From assembly GCF_000524195.1 (NCBI RefSeq), contig NW_020170437.1, positions 71,525 through 135,524 of the forward strand: a DNA stretch of 64,000 nucleotides. Direction: 5' to 3'. The translations under genes were made by a program, and so were the position numbers. Origin of the DNA: Echinococcus granulosus. Lineage: Eukaryota; Platyhelminthes; Cestoda; Cyclophyllidea; Taeniidae. Numbering within the stretch: the first letter of the stretch is position 1; each line of letters starts with the position of its first letter. Shown in pieces: positions 31,665-60,645 of this stretch. The notes under the pieces are model-generated. The model saw nothing but the letters and a program-made list of their open reading frames with translations, was not told the origin of the DNA and ran no database searches.

Positions 31665-32669
31665 CTAAGCTAATAGAAGAACTGCACAGGGTATTGTCGA
31701 TCGGTTAGATATCCCGCACTTACTTGTAGTACTGTAACGCTGACGACCTGACCGGTTTGATTGTTGAGAGGCCTGATTATATCCTTCTCTATCTGAATCA
31801 AAAAAATCATCCAGCTAACTGAGGTTCTAATAGGCACCCTTACCAATAGCGGCAACTAAAATCCAAGAGCAGCTTACATGACTGATATGTGTTTGAAGTG
31901 TCCCCACCGGGTTTCTGTAGTGCCAAAGGTCGAATGTCATCCAAACTGAGGCTCCTTTGACTTAAGTGATTTATTATGAGATCTTGACTCTACGACACAA
32001 AATCGACCGTACAACCTTAGAGAATTTTAGGGTATAAAAGAGACAAGAAACTTTGCTAGATAGTACTATGGGGATTAAAACAAAGGAAATCTCCTGGGAA
32101 GTTGGCAGGAGAGTGCGGGACCGAAAGGTGTACCTTAATCGCGGTGTGAATAGCTGTATTCGCAACATAGGTTAATCCTTTTGCGCCGAAATGCATGAGA
32201 GCGCTGCAGCTTGATTCAGCTGCCCGTTCAATGTACTGATCAATGTCCTAAAAAGTCATTTATAAAGCCATGTAACCTTTTCCTTGTTGCTGAGTCGGGG
32301 ATGAACAATTTTTCTGTATATAATGCTGGACCCCTGTGTGAAGGGTAACACGAGGTAGAGGACGAATGCAGTTTTGATTTCGTAGTAGAGTGGGAACCTT
32401 TGCATATTTAGACAAATAATAAAATACCAAGCCAGTAAAATATCCCCAACGGTTTCAAAGGCAGTGAAACAGGAAAACACGATCCAATACATAGTCAGAC
32501 GAACCTGAACGAGTAAAATTGCAGAAATGCATACCAACTCCTTCACATCCTTATACCTAAGAGCTTTGTAAGACTTATAAGCAGGATAGAGGACGCCAAA
32601 AATTGTTCTAAAGGTCTTATTAAGGGAATACTCGTACGTTATAAAGCGGCAGAACAGGGGCACGATCAT
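31665..32669 (-). CDS. Receptor expression-enhancing protein, REEP1-4 type (TB2/DP1/HVA22 family), 8 exons
   Basis: Membrane-shaping protein of the endoplasmic reticulum, which it curves through hydrophobic hairpins. Exons: complement 32669-32638, 32607-32535, 32504-32428, 32397-32277, 32247-32134, 31989-31878, 31792-31724, 31681-31665; 204 aa. Family features in order: [67 protein letters not shown], then [16 protein letters not shown] and [11 protein letters not shown], the last matching the SFSMQDL segment of REEP1-4. Introns 1-4 are 30, 30, 30 and 29 nt. The first three lack stops and are 3n, so an uninterrupted 137-codon reading frame exists. Removing them restores the exact spacing of the family, including the 21 residues from Met to LYPAY. 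The last two small exons (the Arg/Gln/Ser-rich tail and ILLLA) rest on phase and splice sites alone. A three-codon upstream ORF overlaps the start codon. Confidence 0.92.
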
Positions 32670-34380: not shown

Positions 34381-37300
34381 TTAACCGGAGCCGACTTGCA
34401 GAACGACCACCGTAGCGTGATCTAATTTGCCAGGCATTCTTTTCATCGAGTCCATGATCCAAGCTCGCCTGCGCTCCAACTCACACAACTCATCGTCCTT
34501 CTTAGCAGTTCCTACGCTTCCGCAACTACCACCGCTAGCTGCACTCCCTGGTTCGGTCTTCTCTTGCATCGAATTCTTCTTACGCATGTATCGCGAGAAC
34601 TGCGCCTTTAACTTGGTAGTTTCGGGTGCCTCGAGGAATTGGCGCTTCTGTGCTGTCACACGCTTGACGTGCCTCAGTAGGGCCTCCCCAAAGTCTGCTG
34701 CAGAAACTTCACCATTGCCGGTGTGCTCGAGCTCGTACCAAATGCGCGTGAGTTCCTTTGCCGCATACTGACGACGTTCCGGCCAGGTGAGCTCCAACTG
34801 GTCGGTGTAGTTGAGGCTGCGCGCACTCACCCCGTCGGGACTAGACAGAAGCGAATCGGGTTCTGGTGGTGTCAATGCCGGTGGTAGGGCCGATGGTGGG
34901 GGAGGCGGCGGTTTGGGCCACACCAGCAGCGCATAGGGCGTCGAGATAGGGGTCATTTTGGCCCAGTTATGGCACGCGTTTGGGTACACCTTAGAAAGAG
35001 TAGTACTGCCACTCTCAGCCTCGTTTTCGTCCACGTAGGTGATGTCTGGAGAACGTGGTATAGCGATGCGAAGGATCACTGGATCAAAGTTATCCGTCAG
35101 ACCATCAGTTCCGAAGATTATCACATCCCTTGGAGCGCAGTGCACTACTAAAAGTGCAATTAAATAGCATATTCGATTATGAGGCTCGAAATATAAAATA
35201 AGTGAAAACGTAATAACGTTCAAATTCGAATTTCTGGGTTGTGACAATGAGTCTTCGAAAATAATTGAATTCACAAAACACATAATGGGTCTTAAATTCC
35301 GTAAAATGCATTTTGTGTAAATGTCACCATTCATAAGACACTTTTACCTACGCAAAAAAATGGGTAAAAGTAACCAAAGTACATTACTTGCCGCAATCCC
35401 CTATCAACGATATTTGTCATTCGGCAAAGCCGGACCACAAAGATTTTCTCACAAATATTAGCCACAAAATACGTTACAAATTCCTGAAATCGTATCACAG
35501 AATAGCGCCATTTGCCAAAAAGGAATGAAATTTACCTGTTCCTCCAATATCAAAATGAATTAATAATTATATAGGCAAAAAGTGATCGGTTACGATCGCT
35601 CAGATCCGTTCACTAAAAGTAGAATATTTACAATGCCATTTTTTTGTCATGTACAATTTTAGGACAGCGCGGCTCATTAAATATGTCCGCCTCTGCATGA
35701 AGACCCTAACAAGCGACCTTAACGTACCCGCACACATCAGGTTCTGTAGTTCCGGCTCGCCACACTCGTAGACGGGACCAAGGGCACCACCAGCGTCACG
35801 GAAGTCTCTCTCCGGAAAACCCTCGGTCTCACAGTCCGTTTTGGCGTCTGTAGAGGACGAATGCGGGGGAACCCAGCCGGTAACCTCGACTGTGTCGGTG
35901 CCCTCACGCAGCAGGAAGGCTTGCGAATCTCCGACGGAGGCGACAATGAGGGCACTGCTGTAGCGCGACGTCTCGGGTTCCTCGATGCCCTCCTCCACAG
36001 AAGAAGATGTGGAGAGGCTCGACTGACCAGAGCGGTGGCGTCGGTGACGCTCGCTCAAGTGCACCGGCAGAAGCAGACCTACGCAGAGGGTCGTAAGGCC
36101 CCGCGTCTGCGCCGTAATATCGAGGTGAGCCTGACGGAAAGCCGCGAACAGAAGGCTAGCAGCGTCCTAAAACGAAGTGTCATTTACAAGGCTACAACTT
36201 CACGCTTTGGTTAGATTTTGAAGAGGACAGCTTCCTTGGCAATATGCACAACGTGAAATCTCGTTAGCTCTAAAGCAATAGAATTTGCAGTACGGTGCTA
36301 ATCCTCTGTTTCTGACAGTTAAACAACCAATAAGTTGTATTAAATGACATCATCTTATTTTCTACATACAGCTTAGCCGAAATTCCCCTCTTAGTTTATA
36401 TTCATTTACGCATTAAGCAGTAAGTTTTTCCAGCAGTATGTCTCAAAATCAGATAAAAAATATTCACCAAAATAGTGTAGAGTGGAAAAGTCTACAGCTT
36501 CAAATTAAAATTTAACAACAACCTAGCTTATTTTCTATTTTACGATTTAGCTTTATTGATGCACCTAATTAATTTGCAAAATTTTGTGATTTTCATAAAA
36601 CAGACCTAACGTAAGAAGAGCTACACTCATTTGTGCTCGGAATTAGTTGAATTTCCTGGACTTTTCCTTCAGCATCTTTTAAAAGTTAAGCAGGAGAATG
36701 AAAATGCAGAACTAGATTTCACTACAAATTTCAAAATAACCCAAGGAACTCTTCTTGAAATGAAGGTAGAGATCCATTGAGTCAGAGCCTAAATTGTTAG
36801 TGTTAAAGTAGTGTAATTTGTCGAATCACTTAATTAATTAAGTCTTTGCTATGCACAGAAAACTGAACAATGTAACTCGCAGCTAGAACTGCTTTGTTGG
36901 CGTGGTAAACTTTTTATTCCAAGAAAGAAAGTTGTTCCCTAAGGAGGTGCTTACAATTATACCATTGCAGCGCCGATGCATAAATCCCTTACCACGTCAA
37001 TTACTTCGAGACAATTACGCAATCCCCCGCCCTAGTCAGTTTGATCGAGGATCACTCATTTCGCACGACCCAAGTATTGCGACCGATGAAAAATGCGTTA
37101 TGTACACTGGCTCACTTCGGTATTTTCTGTCCTCAAGGGAAATGTAAAATAAACTAGGTACGAGTGAGAAGGCGACCGCCACTATCATTTGGCAGAGGTT
37201 ATTACTAAACGTAAAAAATGTGCTTTTGGTTAACTTAAACTTAAGGTATTCCACCACTAGTTCCTTTTTTACTTTAGTGATGCTCGAACGTATGGTATAA

Positions 37301-55500: not shown

Positions 55501-58500
55501 GTGTCTTTTGGCAGATGGGTGTAAATTATGTTGATAATCTGGTTTAAAAGTTCTTAAATCTTTCGTAATCGGTGATGCCAGTTTGTAACTCTGTGCTGCG
55601 CAGATAAGCAAGATTGGCATTGAATTTTTCCTATTTTAACATGAATGAATCGCTTTTTTTCTCCAAACGAGAACTTTTCTGTTGGCCCATTAATTTTAGG
55701 TTGAGCAATCGCTGCGTTATTTTAGTATGAAATTGTAGATTACTGCCATTTTTTTGCCTAAAACGACTGAGCTTTGTTTTCTTGGCACACTAAGTAAAAT
55801 TTTTCTTCACTACCTCATGGCACAGGAAATTTAAAGCACTGGCGCCTACTACTATCAGGATGTACTTATGATAAAAGGCAGTAGCATTCTGTACAAATTT
55901 TGTAAAAAGTGGAATGAATGCTCCTCTATGCCAATGTCATCGCCCGTGTGTGTTGATTAGACGGAGCGTGATGTGTCGGTGCGCCAGCGCGCAGCTGACC
56001 TCCTCTACGCGATGTGTGACCGGTCAAACGCACAGGCCATAGTTGGAGAGATGTTGTCATACCTGGAGACCGCGGACTATTCCATTCGCGAGGAGATGGT
56101 TCTCAAGGTAGCCATCCTGGCGGAGAAGTACGCTATCGACTACTCCTGGTATGTGGACACTATCCTCATGCTGATCCGCGTAGCCGGCGACTACGTTAGT
56201 GATGAGGTCTGGCACCGCGTTGTTCAGATTGTGGTCAATCGGGAGGATGTGCAAGCCTATGCTGCGAAGACTGTCTTCGATGTAAGCCACCTATTTCTCT
56301 CTTCCCTTCCTTACACCTACTTCCGGTCAATTTTCTTCTTTTCTCTATCTGTGATTATTCAGCCATGAACGGAGGCGAGTAGCCACTGCGTTCGGCATGC
56401 TTGTGTATATATTCTTCTGAGCAATTTCTGTGCATTTAGTGTCGCCTTCTTGCGTGACCGCAAAACCACATCTGCGGCGGCAGGGTGCAATAAAATTGGT
56501 GGGAGACATCCTCCCCCTCATTTGTTGCTTCGTTAGATTTTTATTTGGTACCATGTATTCTCGTCATTGCTTTTTAGGCTCTAACAGCTCCAGCTTGCCA
56601 CGAAAATATGGTTAAGGTTGGAGGCTACATCCTTGGTGAATTCGGAAACTTGATTGCCGGTGATGCACGTTCTTCGTACGTCCATTTCCTCAAAATATAT
56701 TGATAGTTTAACTAACGCCAGTTCTTAGTGCGGAACGGCGTAGCCTTGAGCTTGAACTGTTTTCCTACGTACTAATGGGACCCGTACTTTCCACTAAATG
56801 CTCTCATTTACAAAGATTCGAACTAATGTTATCACTTTTCGGCTTTCCAGACCGAGGATGCAGTTCGAGCTTATCCATAGTAAGTATCATCTATGCACAC
56901 CCACGACACGCCAGCTTCTCCTCTCAACCTACGTGAAGTTCATCAACCTCTTCCCCGAACTGAAGGAAACGATAGTTGAGGTTCTTTCACAGGATAGCAA
57001 CTATCGTAGCTCCAATGTTGAGATTCAACAGCGATCTGTTGAGTACTTAGCCCTCTCAAAGGTTGTCACTGAAGACATTCTGGTCAGTTAACACCTTTAC
57101 TGTGATTGCTGTTTCTGGATCGACATCTGTGTCAATTGTGAAATGAATGGCCTTTAATAGATTTTACAATCTTTTTCCTATTATAAACTACCAATTTCCG
57201 CAAGAAAATGTGCTTTTATGACACCTTGTTTCATCGGATGTAAAATCCGACTTGTTATTTAATTGCGCACTAGTGTTTGCGCCTTTAGTTGTAGTGTAAG
57301 ATTGCATCCAAATTTGACTTCACATATATCATGCTTGTCGCTGTTGTTGTTGTCATTTCTGTCAAATTGGCGTTGGCCTGAAAATCATTCACATAAACTC
57401 TGTCATCAAATTTTTTCTAGGCTTCATTTGATTGGGATGCTGTCGAACTTCGTTAGATCTTTGTACGTAGAAGTAAACGAAGCCTCTCAGCATTGGCTAA
57501 CTGCCGCTCAACCCTGTCTGTGATGTCAAAAGCTAGCTTCACTTTGTCTCTTTAGGCTACGGTTTTGGAGGAGATGCCTCCATTCCCCGAGCGGGAGTCG
57601 AGTATTCTGGCCAAACTGAAAGCTAAGAAGCCGGAGTCCGATGGTCTTTCCTCAAGTGTGAAGACTAGCGACCGAATTCAACAGAAGGCCACCTCTGCAA
57701 ACGACACGGAGAAGCCACCAGTGGTAAGGTTTATAGCAGCGTTTTCCTCCTCTGTCCGCCTATTGCGTTTGCACAAGTGGATTTAATGCATCTTCCCATT
57801 GGTTGGCTAAGTTGAGAGCAAGGCGTAGGTGCGGTTATGCCTCCGCTTTCTGCCCGCGAATGGGAGTAGAAAAGGGGCTCTCCTTTGCTTCATCCTTTTT
57901 CCCTTGCCTCCCAGATCACTGTTTGTAAATTTCGCGAAAGGCTTCTGTTATTCTAGCTGTGATGATTTAGGGCCTTCCAGCTTTTTATATTTGGAATGTT
58001 TAATTCTGAGATCGCTGTTTGTGGTTGTACATGGTTTTGATTTTGGGATTTCTGAAAACATTTGTTTAACGAAAGCGACATCTGCACAGCTTGTCCTGAG
58101 CAAATTCACAGGAAAATTATTCACGACACATATGTCCATGCATATGCGCACTTCCACCTTTTCAAATATTAAGTATCAAACAGAATTTCTCATTCATATT
58201 GTTGCTGAATTTAATTGCTGTAATCTCAAACATCTATCCTCATTTTCAACGCAAACCACTGAAGCGCGTAAAAATCTTGTGGTATCATCATTTCACTTGT
58301 ATTCAATATGGTCAATAATTGCTTGAATGTGATATCAAAGTTGGTTGAAAACTAGCATAACGAAGTCATGTGCCCCTTTTCATGCTTGTTCAGCCCATAT
58401 TTAGTTTTGTATCCATCCACAAAAGATTTTAAAACTTGTTTGATTAGCGTAATGCCTTTAAATTTGCCCCTTTTCATTGTTATTAACATTTTAATGAGAC

Positions 58501-60645
58501 GTATGTATATAAGATACCCTTTTTTGGAACAGATCCATTTGAGCATGTGTTTTCCTGAGTTAATTATGCCACTATTTATCGGTTCGTGTAATTGTCACCG
58601 TTGTTTTTCGTTAGGCCCCCGGAAACAACGGTACTGCAGAGGCGGATTTGTTGGGTCTCGGGTTGATCACGACCCCCGCCCCAACAACCACTGCGGAGGC
58701 CTCGAAGGCGCCGCCTGCCAGTACCAACAATCAGTTCTTGGCCGACATCCTTGGCAATGGTACAGTCGAGGCCGGCTCCAACGCTATGGTCCTCTCTCAG
58801 CCTCAGACCCGCTCCACGGCTCTCGTAGACCTCGAATCGGAATACATTAGGTCAGCTACAGCACTGCGCTTCCTTTCGAAGACCTCGTCTTCTATAGACC
58901 TTGACACTCCTGTTTAACGCTTCCTTGAAACTATTTTAAGGCTGATCTACAGGCCACAAGGTGTGCTGTTCGAGAACGCCCTTATACAGATCGGCTATCG
59001 ATCAGAGTTCCAAGGCAATTTAGGCAGAGTGCAGCTGTTTTACGGCAACAAGAGCGGCTCGGCTATCACGGCTTTTGCTTCAAAGGTGGTGTTCTCGGAG
59101 ATCTGTCCAACCACGGGCAGGAGTCCCCTCAACCTCGACCTTCGTCCTGCACCCACCACTATTGAGCCTGAGAAGCAGGTTCCGCAGGTCCTCAACATCG
59201 AATGTCTCGTCGACTTTGCTGAGATTCCTGTCCTGAGCATCAATTACTCGTAAGTCGCCTTACATTCCTTATCTTTTTATATTAAAGGAAGGGGAAGGCA
59301 TGTGTCTCTCAGCTTCTCTACGTTTATCGGGTTACTCGAAGGTGCAAGCAAAAGCCTTGTTCCTCAATGATTTACATTAATCAATTCGCGTTTATACCAT
59401 AAATATCATCTTCGAAAAGCATTACAAATTGGCTTCGACTCCTCCGACTCATCGGCTCGCCTTATTCTTTTTTCAGAAACCAGAATGGTTCGAATCAACT
59501 GTCGCTTCCGCTACCGATTTTTCTTAACAAGTTCGCTCAGTCCGCACCAATGGATCAGCCGACGTTTTTTGCTCGATGGAAGCTTCTTTGCCAGTAAGCA
59601 CTCATGGCCCAATCATACTTTATTGTTTGTGTTGTCCAAATGCATAAGAATCCTATTTTAAAGGATGACAATTTGTTTCACAAGAATCAGACATTTATTT
59701 TAGACATTATTCAGTTCCTAGCAAACCTCAAAGTCGGGTTTTAACCACATATCGGTAGTTGGCAGAATTTTATGCAGCTAAATGTGAATTGCTCCTGTAT
59801 TATTTGCATTCTGGTTTATAAGGCGTCGATGCTTTTTGTTTATATCAGACCTGGTCAGGAATGCCAAAGGGTGGCGGGAGCCAAGCTCTCCTTCAACTTG
59901 AATGACATCAAGCAACGGGTGAGTAGCAAGTGATTTTACCATGTCCATGTTCAACCACGTCCAAAAAACCACGTTACGTCGAAATTTCGATCAGGCGGCC
60001 AATCGTTGTTGTCTTTTGATATTGCCCTCTTTTTTGTGTATGCTCCCATGCCTTTCACTAGGAGTTAGCCGAAATTATAGCCAACGAAAAGTACGTGCCA
60101 CTGCCAACATTCTAGCTATCCTTTATTTTATGCACTTTTATTTTAGTGCCTTTAAATTAACTCCTAAAGTTACAGAATTGCTCATTTGACTTCTCTAGAT
60201 TTCTGGGTCAGGGCTGAGCATTCTACCAGACATTGATCCCTGCCCAACCAACATCGTGTGTGCAGGAATCGTTCATACTGCTAGTCAGCAGGTTGGCGTT
60301 CTCGCTCGAATAGAATCCAACGTAGGTTTTGCTACACCTTTGATCTGTGCCTCTTCTTTGTCTTACAGTCACTGCTAAATGTCGATTTTTATTGACAACT
60401 ATTCGATAAATTGACTCAATAAACTCATTGAAAAATAAGCCCTCTAAAGAATCTACTTCTGCTTCCCTTTCCTGTTTCGTAACGTGAAATTGGGTTTTCA
60501 CTTCTGAAAGTATTTTTTTGTTGGGAACGCTATGCAGCCTCATCAAAATCTTTATTTACCCCAGAACTTCCGCGTGACCGTCAGAAGCACTAAGGCATCG
60601 GTCTCCGACTGCATCTGTTCTATTCTGCTCACAGAGCTGAGATAA
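52562..60645 (+). CDS. AP2A: AP-2 complex subunit alpha (alpha-adaptin), 17 exons
   Basis: Large subunit of the AP-2 adaptor, which binds PIP2 membranes, cargo and clathrin accessory proteins in endocytosis. Exons: 52562-52694, 53098-53240, 53277-53470, 53511-53640, 53709-53810, 54385-54493, 55008-55327, 55961-56281, 56578-56675, 56851-57082, 57556-57723, 58615-58850, 58953-59249, 59477-59593, 59849-59918, 60199-60321, 60565-60645. All phases fit; the product is 957 aa, against about 940-980 in animals. It begins [11 protein letters not shown] and carries the N-terminal signature [20 protein letters not shown]. Residues 1 to about 600 form the helical trunk ([31 protein letters not shown]); a Pro/Ala/Thr-rich hinge follows to about 728, with DLLGLG; the ear starts at [12 protein letters not shown] and ends SILLTELR. 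Introns 2 and 3 are 36 and 40 nt and would put a stop in frame if retained. Intron 1 seems to use a GC donor. A poly(A) signal AATAAA lies at 60739. Identity is certain; individual splice sites are predicted. Confidence 0.97.
59957..60040 (+). repeat. Short interspersed repeat, copy 1, in AP2A intron 15
   Basis: About 84 bp starting ACGTCCAAAAAACCACGTTA and ending in CCCTCTTTTTTGTGTA. It aligns with 63527-63608 along its whole length with scattered substitutions. Confidence 0.7.

Follow-up and report, generated by a model that had tools for sequence, protein, structure and literature searches.

A REEP-type gene of the TB2/DP1/HVA22 family in Echinococcus granulosus very likely has, as its first four coding introns, four consecutive microintrons of 30, 30, 30, and 29 nt. 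The reading preferred here, to which we assign a probability of about 0.9, is that the gene is an ordinary member of its family, that the four introns are flatworm microintrons that are constitutively spliced, and that three of them are multiples of three in length (3n) and free of in-frame stops by chance. The gene lies on the minus strand of the stretch of DNA that was analysed (64 kb; hereafter the window), which belongs to a genome of 103.6 Mb in 272 contigs.

The preliminary description had proposed four introns of these lengths, and all four were found (Table 1). Inspection of the letters confirmed that introns 1–3 are 3n, contain no in-frame stop, begin with GTA, and end with AG. It also confirmed a single read-through frame of 137 codons from the first ATG, closed by a stop inside intron 4. 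All four microintrons have GT-AG boundaries, with GTT at the start of intron 4. U12-type introns carry the donor motif RTATCC, which is absent from REEP introns 1–4. Removal of the four microintrons yields a product of 139 residues up to intron 5.

Table 1. Features of the REEP-type gene, in positions of the window.
Feature	Position	Strand	Description
REEP coding exon 1	32638..32669	-	ATG at 32669; Met start aligned with the N-terminus of homologue P0001
Intron 1	32608..32637	-	30 nt, phase 2, 3n, without in-frame stop, GTACGA...TTTAG; weakest support among the four
Intron 2	32505..32534	-	30 nt, phase 0, 3n, without in-frame stop, GTATGC...TTCAG
Intron 3	32398..32427	-	30 nt, phase 2, 3n, without in-frame stop, GTATTT...CAAAG
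Intron 4	32248..32276	-	29 nt, phase 0, frame-breaking, GTTACA...TTTAG; holds the read-through stop
Intron 5	31990..32133	-	144 nt, first beyond the microintron class (spliced aligner)
Intron 6	31793..31877	-	about 85 nt, tentative; placed by eye from likeness to the C-terminal part of P0001
TB2_DP1_HVA22 (PF03134) match, unspliced	32298..32585 (= G000:C216:103822-104109)	-	72.2 bits, over cut-off

A homologue search with the spliced product returned five proteins (P0001–P0005) at an E-value of 0.001 among seven candidates, including proteins of Rodentolepis nana (P0001), Taenia asiatica, Hymenolepis microstoma, and Mesocestoides corti (P0004). Once all four introns are taken out, the REEP product aligns with the R. 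nana protein across 139 residues without a gap, at 91% identity and 258 bits. The restoration of the protein is exact. Left unspliced, the same gene reaches 165 bits against P0001, with three gap openings totalling 30 residues; with intron 1 alone kept, it reaches 250 bits, with a single 10-residue gap exactly at the splice site. Orthologues containing the ten-residue insertions had been named in advance as the observation that would speak against introns. They were sought, and none of the five homologues has such an insertion at the sites that it covers. Intron 1 is covered by P0001 only. P0001 and P0005 span the site of intron 2, P0002 reaches it with a single residue, P0003 does not reach it, and in the M. 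corti model it falls in a disturbed stretch. All five homologues span the site of intron 3, where P0005 has one extra residue.

For introns 2 and 3, domain scores point the same way. Against Pfam TB2_DP1_HVA22 (cut-off 27.2 bits), the unspliced sequence scores 74.5 bits and the fully spliced 139 residues score 98.7 bits, a full domain match in which no difference from the family was found. Removal of intron 2 raises the score to 82.4 bits (+7.9), of intron 3 to 90.8 bits (+16.3), and of both to 99.4 bits (+24.9). Removal of intron 1 alone gains nothing (74.8 bits, +0.3) because it lies outside the domain. The earlier view that spliceosomal introns interrupt a REEP gene here, and that three of them escape a reading of open frames, is supported. 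Introns 2–4 are near certain to be real. We infer that all four segments are spliced out in vivo, and constitutively.

The wider occurrence of such introns was sampled in conserved domains of the same genome. Protein kinases supplied a list of 139 matches, and 90 loci (some with several matches) were aligned to a profile bootstrapped from this genome's own kinases; the 86 loci at 80 bits or more were used, and 67 of these bear introns. Six kinesin and 14 Ras loci were added. They were chosen for closely spaced matches, some with stops inside, and are therefore biased to microintrons and perhaps also to 3n introns that contain stops. With the intron penalty set at 9 bits, 196 ‘introns’ were obtained for GT-AG and 172 for a TG-GA control, and this setting was therefore given up for one of 14 bits. 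Without splice-site weights, 36 of 158 introns fell within 25–40 nt, compared with 10 of 123 for the TG...GA control, which also imitates true introns and, since it still yields 123 ‘introns’, leaves single predictions not proven one by one. The donor and acceptor weights of the aligner reward consensus, and the consensus seen in the sampled microintrons is therefore partly built in.

Microintrons form a broad class in these loci. Among kinase introns, 39 of 165 measure 25–40 nt, with a mode of 34 nt, and a second, broad group lies at 75–88 nt (25 of 165). The three families together give 205 introns, of which 63 are microintrons of 28–40 nt (median 34 nt; 12 at 30 nt or less). By length, these number two at 28 nt, five at 29, five at 30, three at 31, six at 32, seven at 33, ten at 34, seven at 35, six at 36, four at 37, two at 38, and six at 40. 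In loci L100, L060, and L095, the aligner predicted introns of 13, 15, and 18 nt; these were taken as artefacts but remain within the total of 205.

The class is also clustered and ordered within genes. Adjacent pairs of microintrons occur 25 times, compared with 11.1 expected, a count reached in none of 2000 shuffles. A microintron is followed by a longer intron 24 times, and the reverse order occurs six times; none of 2000 within-gene shuffles reaches this difference, and the same holds for kinases alone (18 vs. 4; 0 of 2000). The branch-site motif yTnAy gives no signal, being present in 39 of the 63 microintrons compared with 40.2 in shuffles, and positions -4 to -9 are still rich in T and C. 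Of the 87 intron-bearing loci, seven have at least three microintrons (kinases: 5 of 67), namely L012, L031, L036, L082, L091, L103 (two of 29 nt, one of 34 nt), and L104. The REEP introns are the short end of this broad class. They agree with it in length (29–30 nt), in their GT-AG boundaries, and in standing four in a row, and their placement ahead of introns of 144 nt and, tentatively, about 85 nt matches the order in the sampled genes.

What sets the REEP gene apart is the absence of stops from three 3n microintrons in a row. In the sample, 18 of 63 microintrons are 3n, and only 2 of 63 are both 3n and stop-free. In-frame stops are present in 16 of 18 3n microintrons vs. 25 of 45 non-3n ones (Fisher p = 0.018), and in kinases alone in 10 of 12 vs. 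12 of 27 (p = 0.037). When the 3n introns are instead compared with their own other two frames, the figures are 16 of 18 vs. 22 of 36 overall (p = 0.057) and 10 of 12 vs. 16 of 24 for kinases (p = 0.44). In this small and partly biased sample, with its weaker alternative control, the excess is a hint of retention surveillance as in ciliates. Among the first 10 of 29 matches of a literature search, judged by title and abstract opening, no paper dealt with stops in the short introns of flatworms; a planarian splicing study was one of the ten.

The REEP triple can be set against these rates. Under neutral sample rates, three stop-free 3n microintrons would be expected with a frequency of 0.0014 per gene with three microintrons, and at the observed rate (2 of 63), of 3e-5 per gene. 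The second figure, much the lower of the two, counts against chance. With three or more microintrons in 7 of 87 loci and a gene number of about 10,000, taken from H. microstoma, the rates give as a rough inference about one such gene per genome (neutral) or 0.03 (observed rate). Since about one is expected under neutral rates, chance is an adequate explanation for the triple.

An alternative is that introns 1–3 are optional coding introns, similar to exitrons, and that their partial retention gives isoforms of REEP in which as many as three segments of 10 residues are inserted. All three preserve the frame and lack stops, and on visual inspection two of the peptides that they would add seem hydrophobic. 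Such a reading would place the inserts in and near the membrane hairpin, with transcripts that evade nonsense-mediated decay and with splicing of intron 4 obligatory; this elaboration, like the general proposal, is improbable. The splice-site scores of REEP introns 1–4 are 1.4, 2.9, -0.3, and -0.2, so that introns 3 and 4 have weak sites; the sampled microintrons have a median of 2.3, with 2 of 63 below zero, but they were found with the same splice-site weights, and the sample therefore leans to strong sites. Optional retention would also fit the stops carried by most other 3n microintrons (16 of 18, above) and the published finding that no form of alternative splicing is commoner than retention, which makes up 39 and 42% of events in Echinococcus and 22% in Taenia hydatigena (PMC5440512, PMC8384839). 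Against it stand the homologues, which lack the insertions at the covered sites (for intron 1, in P0001 only), and the Pfam cost of retention, which is 8.6 bits for intron 2, 17.0 bits for intron 3, and none for intron 1. The rate calculation weighs against it as well, as chance yields about one such gene per genome at neutral rates. An extended form has an equally slim chance of being correct: selection would keep stops in tapeworm 3n microintrons, leading to the destruction of transcripts that retain them, and REEP would be the exception, with optional in-frame inserts that vary a membrane-shaping protein in a lineage whose alternative splicing is most often intron retention.

Constitutive splicing remains the preferred reading, and for intron 1 it has to be weighed against the possibility that one or more of the segments, most plausibly this one, is always translated, giving the gene fewer introns and a longer N-terminus. 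A purpose-written spliced aligner was run against P0001 alone with a varying intron penalty. Introns 4 and 5 were retained in the solution even at 40 bits, introns 2 and 3 appeared at their exact coordinates up to 16 bits and were gone at 18, and intron 1 was accepted up to 12 bits and lost at 14. From 14 bits upwards, the aligner favours an unremoved intron 1, part of which then matches the N-terminus of the R. nana protein with no gap; the frame is open there, and the segment lies outside the Pfam domain. In the region of intron 6, other splits were obtained at low penalty. When a profile of four proteins was used instead, intron 1 stayed unspliced and intron 3 was taken as an insertion, misses that may be due to extra columns in that profile. 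Permanent translation of intron 1 is nonetheless a very improbable reading. The 30-nt GT-AG removal at 32637 (exactly 32637-32608) ranks at the top of 2160 in-frame removals, nine of them GT-AG, and is tied with its own 1-nt shift. It also gives a distance from Met to LYPAY equal to that in P0001. Although the case for it comes down to 12–14 bits, a Met start, and a GT-AG boundary, intron 1 is very likely to be real.

The suggestion that the uniform 30 nt marks a distinct class of introns whose length is held tightly constant in this genome draws on the run of three 30-nt introns and a 29-nt one, with a probability of 0.0013 for four of 30 nt or less in independent draws from the sample, but it was rejected as scarcely credible on the length histogram, in which the 63 microintrons spread over 28–40 nt with no spike at 30 nt (5 there, 10 at 34). 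Nor is 30 nt close to the known lower limit, as had been supposed: introns of 15 nt are reported in Stentor and of 18–21 nt in the Bigelowiella nucleomorph, and Dicyema also has shorter ones (PMC12316389, PMC2222250).

Short introns of this kind are known from other flatworms. Published peaks near 36 and 73 bp in Taenia and Echinococcus (PMC5036155) agree with the present sample in length range and abundance of the first class, and the second, broader class (about 73 bp there) lies at 75–88 nt here. That report places its peak-1 introns in the direction of gene 3' ends, whereas the microintrons of the conserved domains sampled here precede longer introns. The REEP microintrons very likely belong to this class already described for tapeworms. 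In Opisthorchis felineus, microintrons are reported to peak at 37 bp, to be clustered, and to be biased to the 5' end, and short introns are reported for other flatworms too (PMC6530080). Clustering and placement before longer introns are alike here, although the median is 34 nt. The same report describes the loss of other splicing signals, in line with the lack of branch motif excess in our sample, and frequent loss of the polypyrimidine tract, in contrast to the T- and C-rich positions -4 to -9 seen here (PMC6530080). It gives microintron sites as close to consensus, to be compared with the REEP scores above, which are on the weights of this analysis, and its microintron section holds no discussion of stop-free 3n microintrons (PMC6530080).

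Comparisons beyond flatworms are partial. Ultra-short ciliate introns of 3n length are described as carrying in-frame stops more often than non-3n ones, as is the case here, and the pattern has been interpreted as surveillance of retained introns (PMC5014332, which cites Jaillon 2008). Unlike in ciliates, 3n lengths are not clearly depleted in our sample (18 of 63), and the REEP gene opposes the stop trend. Dicyemids are a case of animal introns mostly shorter than 35 nt, with a mean of 26.2 nt (SD 1.9) for 16 introns (PMC2222250); here, in contrast, just 39 of 165 kinase introns, roughly one in four, are microintrons.

Under the preferred reading, the gene would draw on a general flatworm type of intron, GT-AG in its boundaries, about 28–40 nt long, and set in runs upstream of longer introns. 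Recognition of the REEP microintrons would most likely follow intron definition, the major spliceosome would remove them constitutively, and the three that are both 3n and stop-free would have come about through chance of composition and length. In human systems, about 50 nt from the 5' splice site to the branch site is reported to be needed for efficient splicing, and Smu1 and RED to assist the splicing of short introns (PMC6692369). An intron of 30 nt is far below that distance, and how an animal spliceosome handles such introns is therefore a real question. This genome contains a RED_N match at 5e-62.

The stop-free triple is in itself a curiosity, of practical use to those who annotate genomes, and offers a hint of surveillance that is weak so far. 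Gene finding based on open reading frames reads stop-free 3n microintrons as protein, and exons in flatworm gene models may therefore be broken or carry ten residues that do not belong there. The REEP model of M. corti (P0004) looks disturbed in the microintron region. If the stop bias of 3n microintrons were true genome-wide, it would show that the intron sequences of these animals are moulded by surveillance against retention.

Several other features were noted. Rfam and tRNA scans of the 64-kb window gave no match, and the neighbouring open reading frames at 34381-35334, 35600-36064, and 58368-58850 had no Pfam match at an E-value of 0.01. Open frames on the minus strand at window positions 34381-36064 carry FGTDGLTDN and DHATVVVL, which we take to be typical of PP2C-type phosphatases. 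A second REEP-like match, with its frames read, lies elsewhere in the genome at G000:C108:63657-63797 (L002). Two COX1-like fragments (L003 and L004) at G000:C84:42156-43243, on a contig of 106 kb, each contain a TGA read as a stop and may represent mitochondrial DNA copied into the nucleus. A pair of Ras-like matches at G000:C134:134478-136599 and 178851-180972, about 44 kb apart and with equal spacing and scores, represents either a recent duplication or an assembly repeat.
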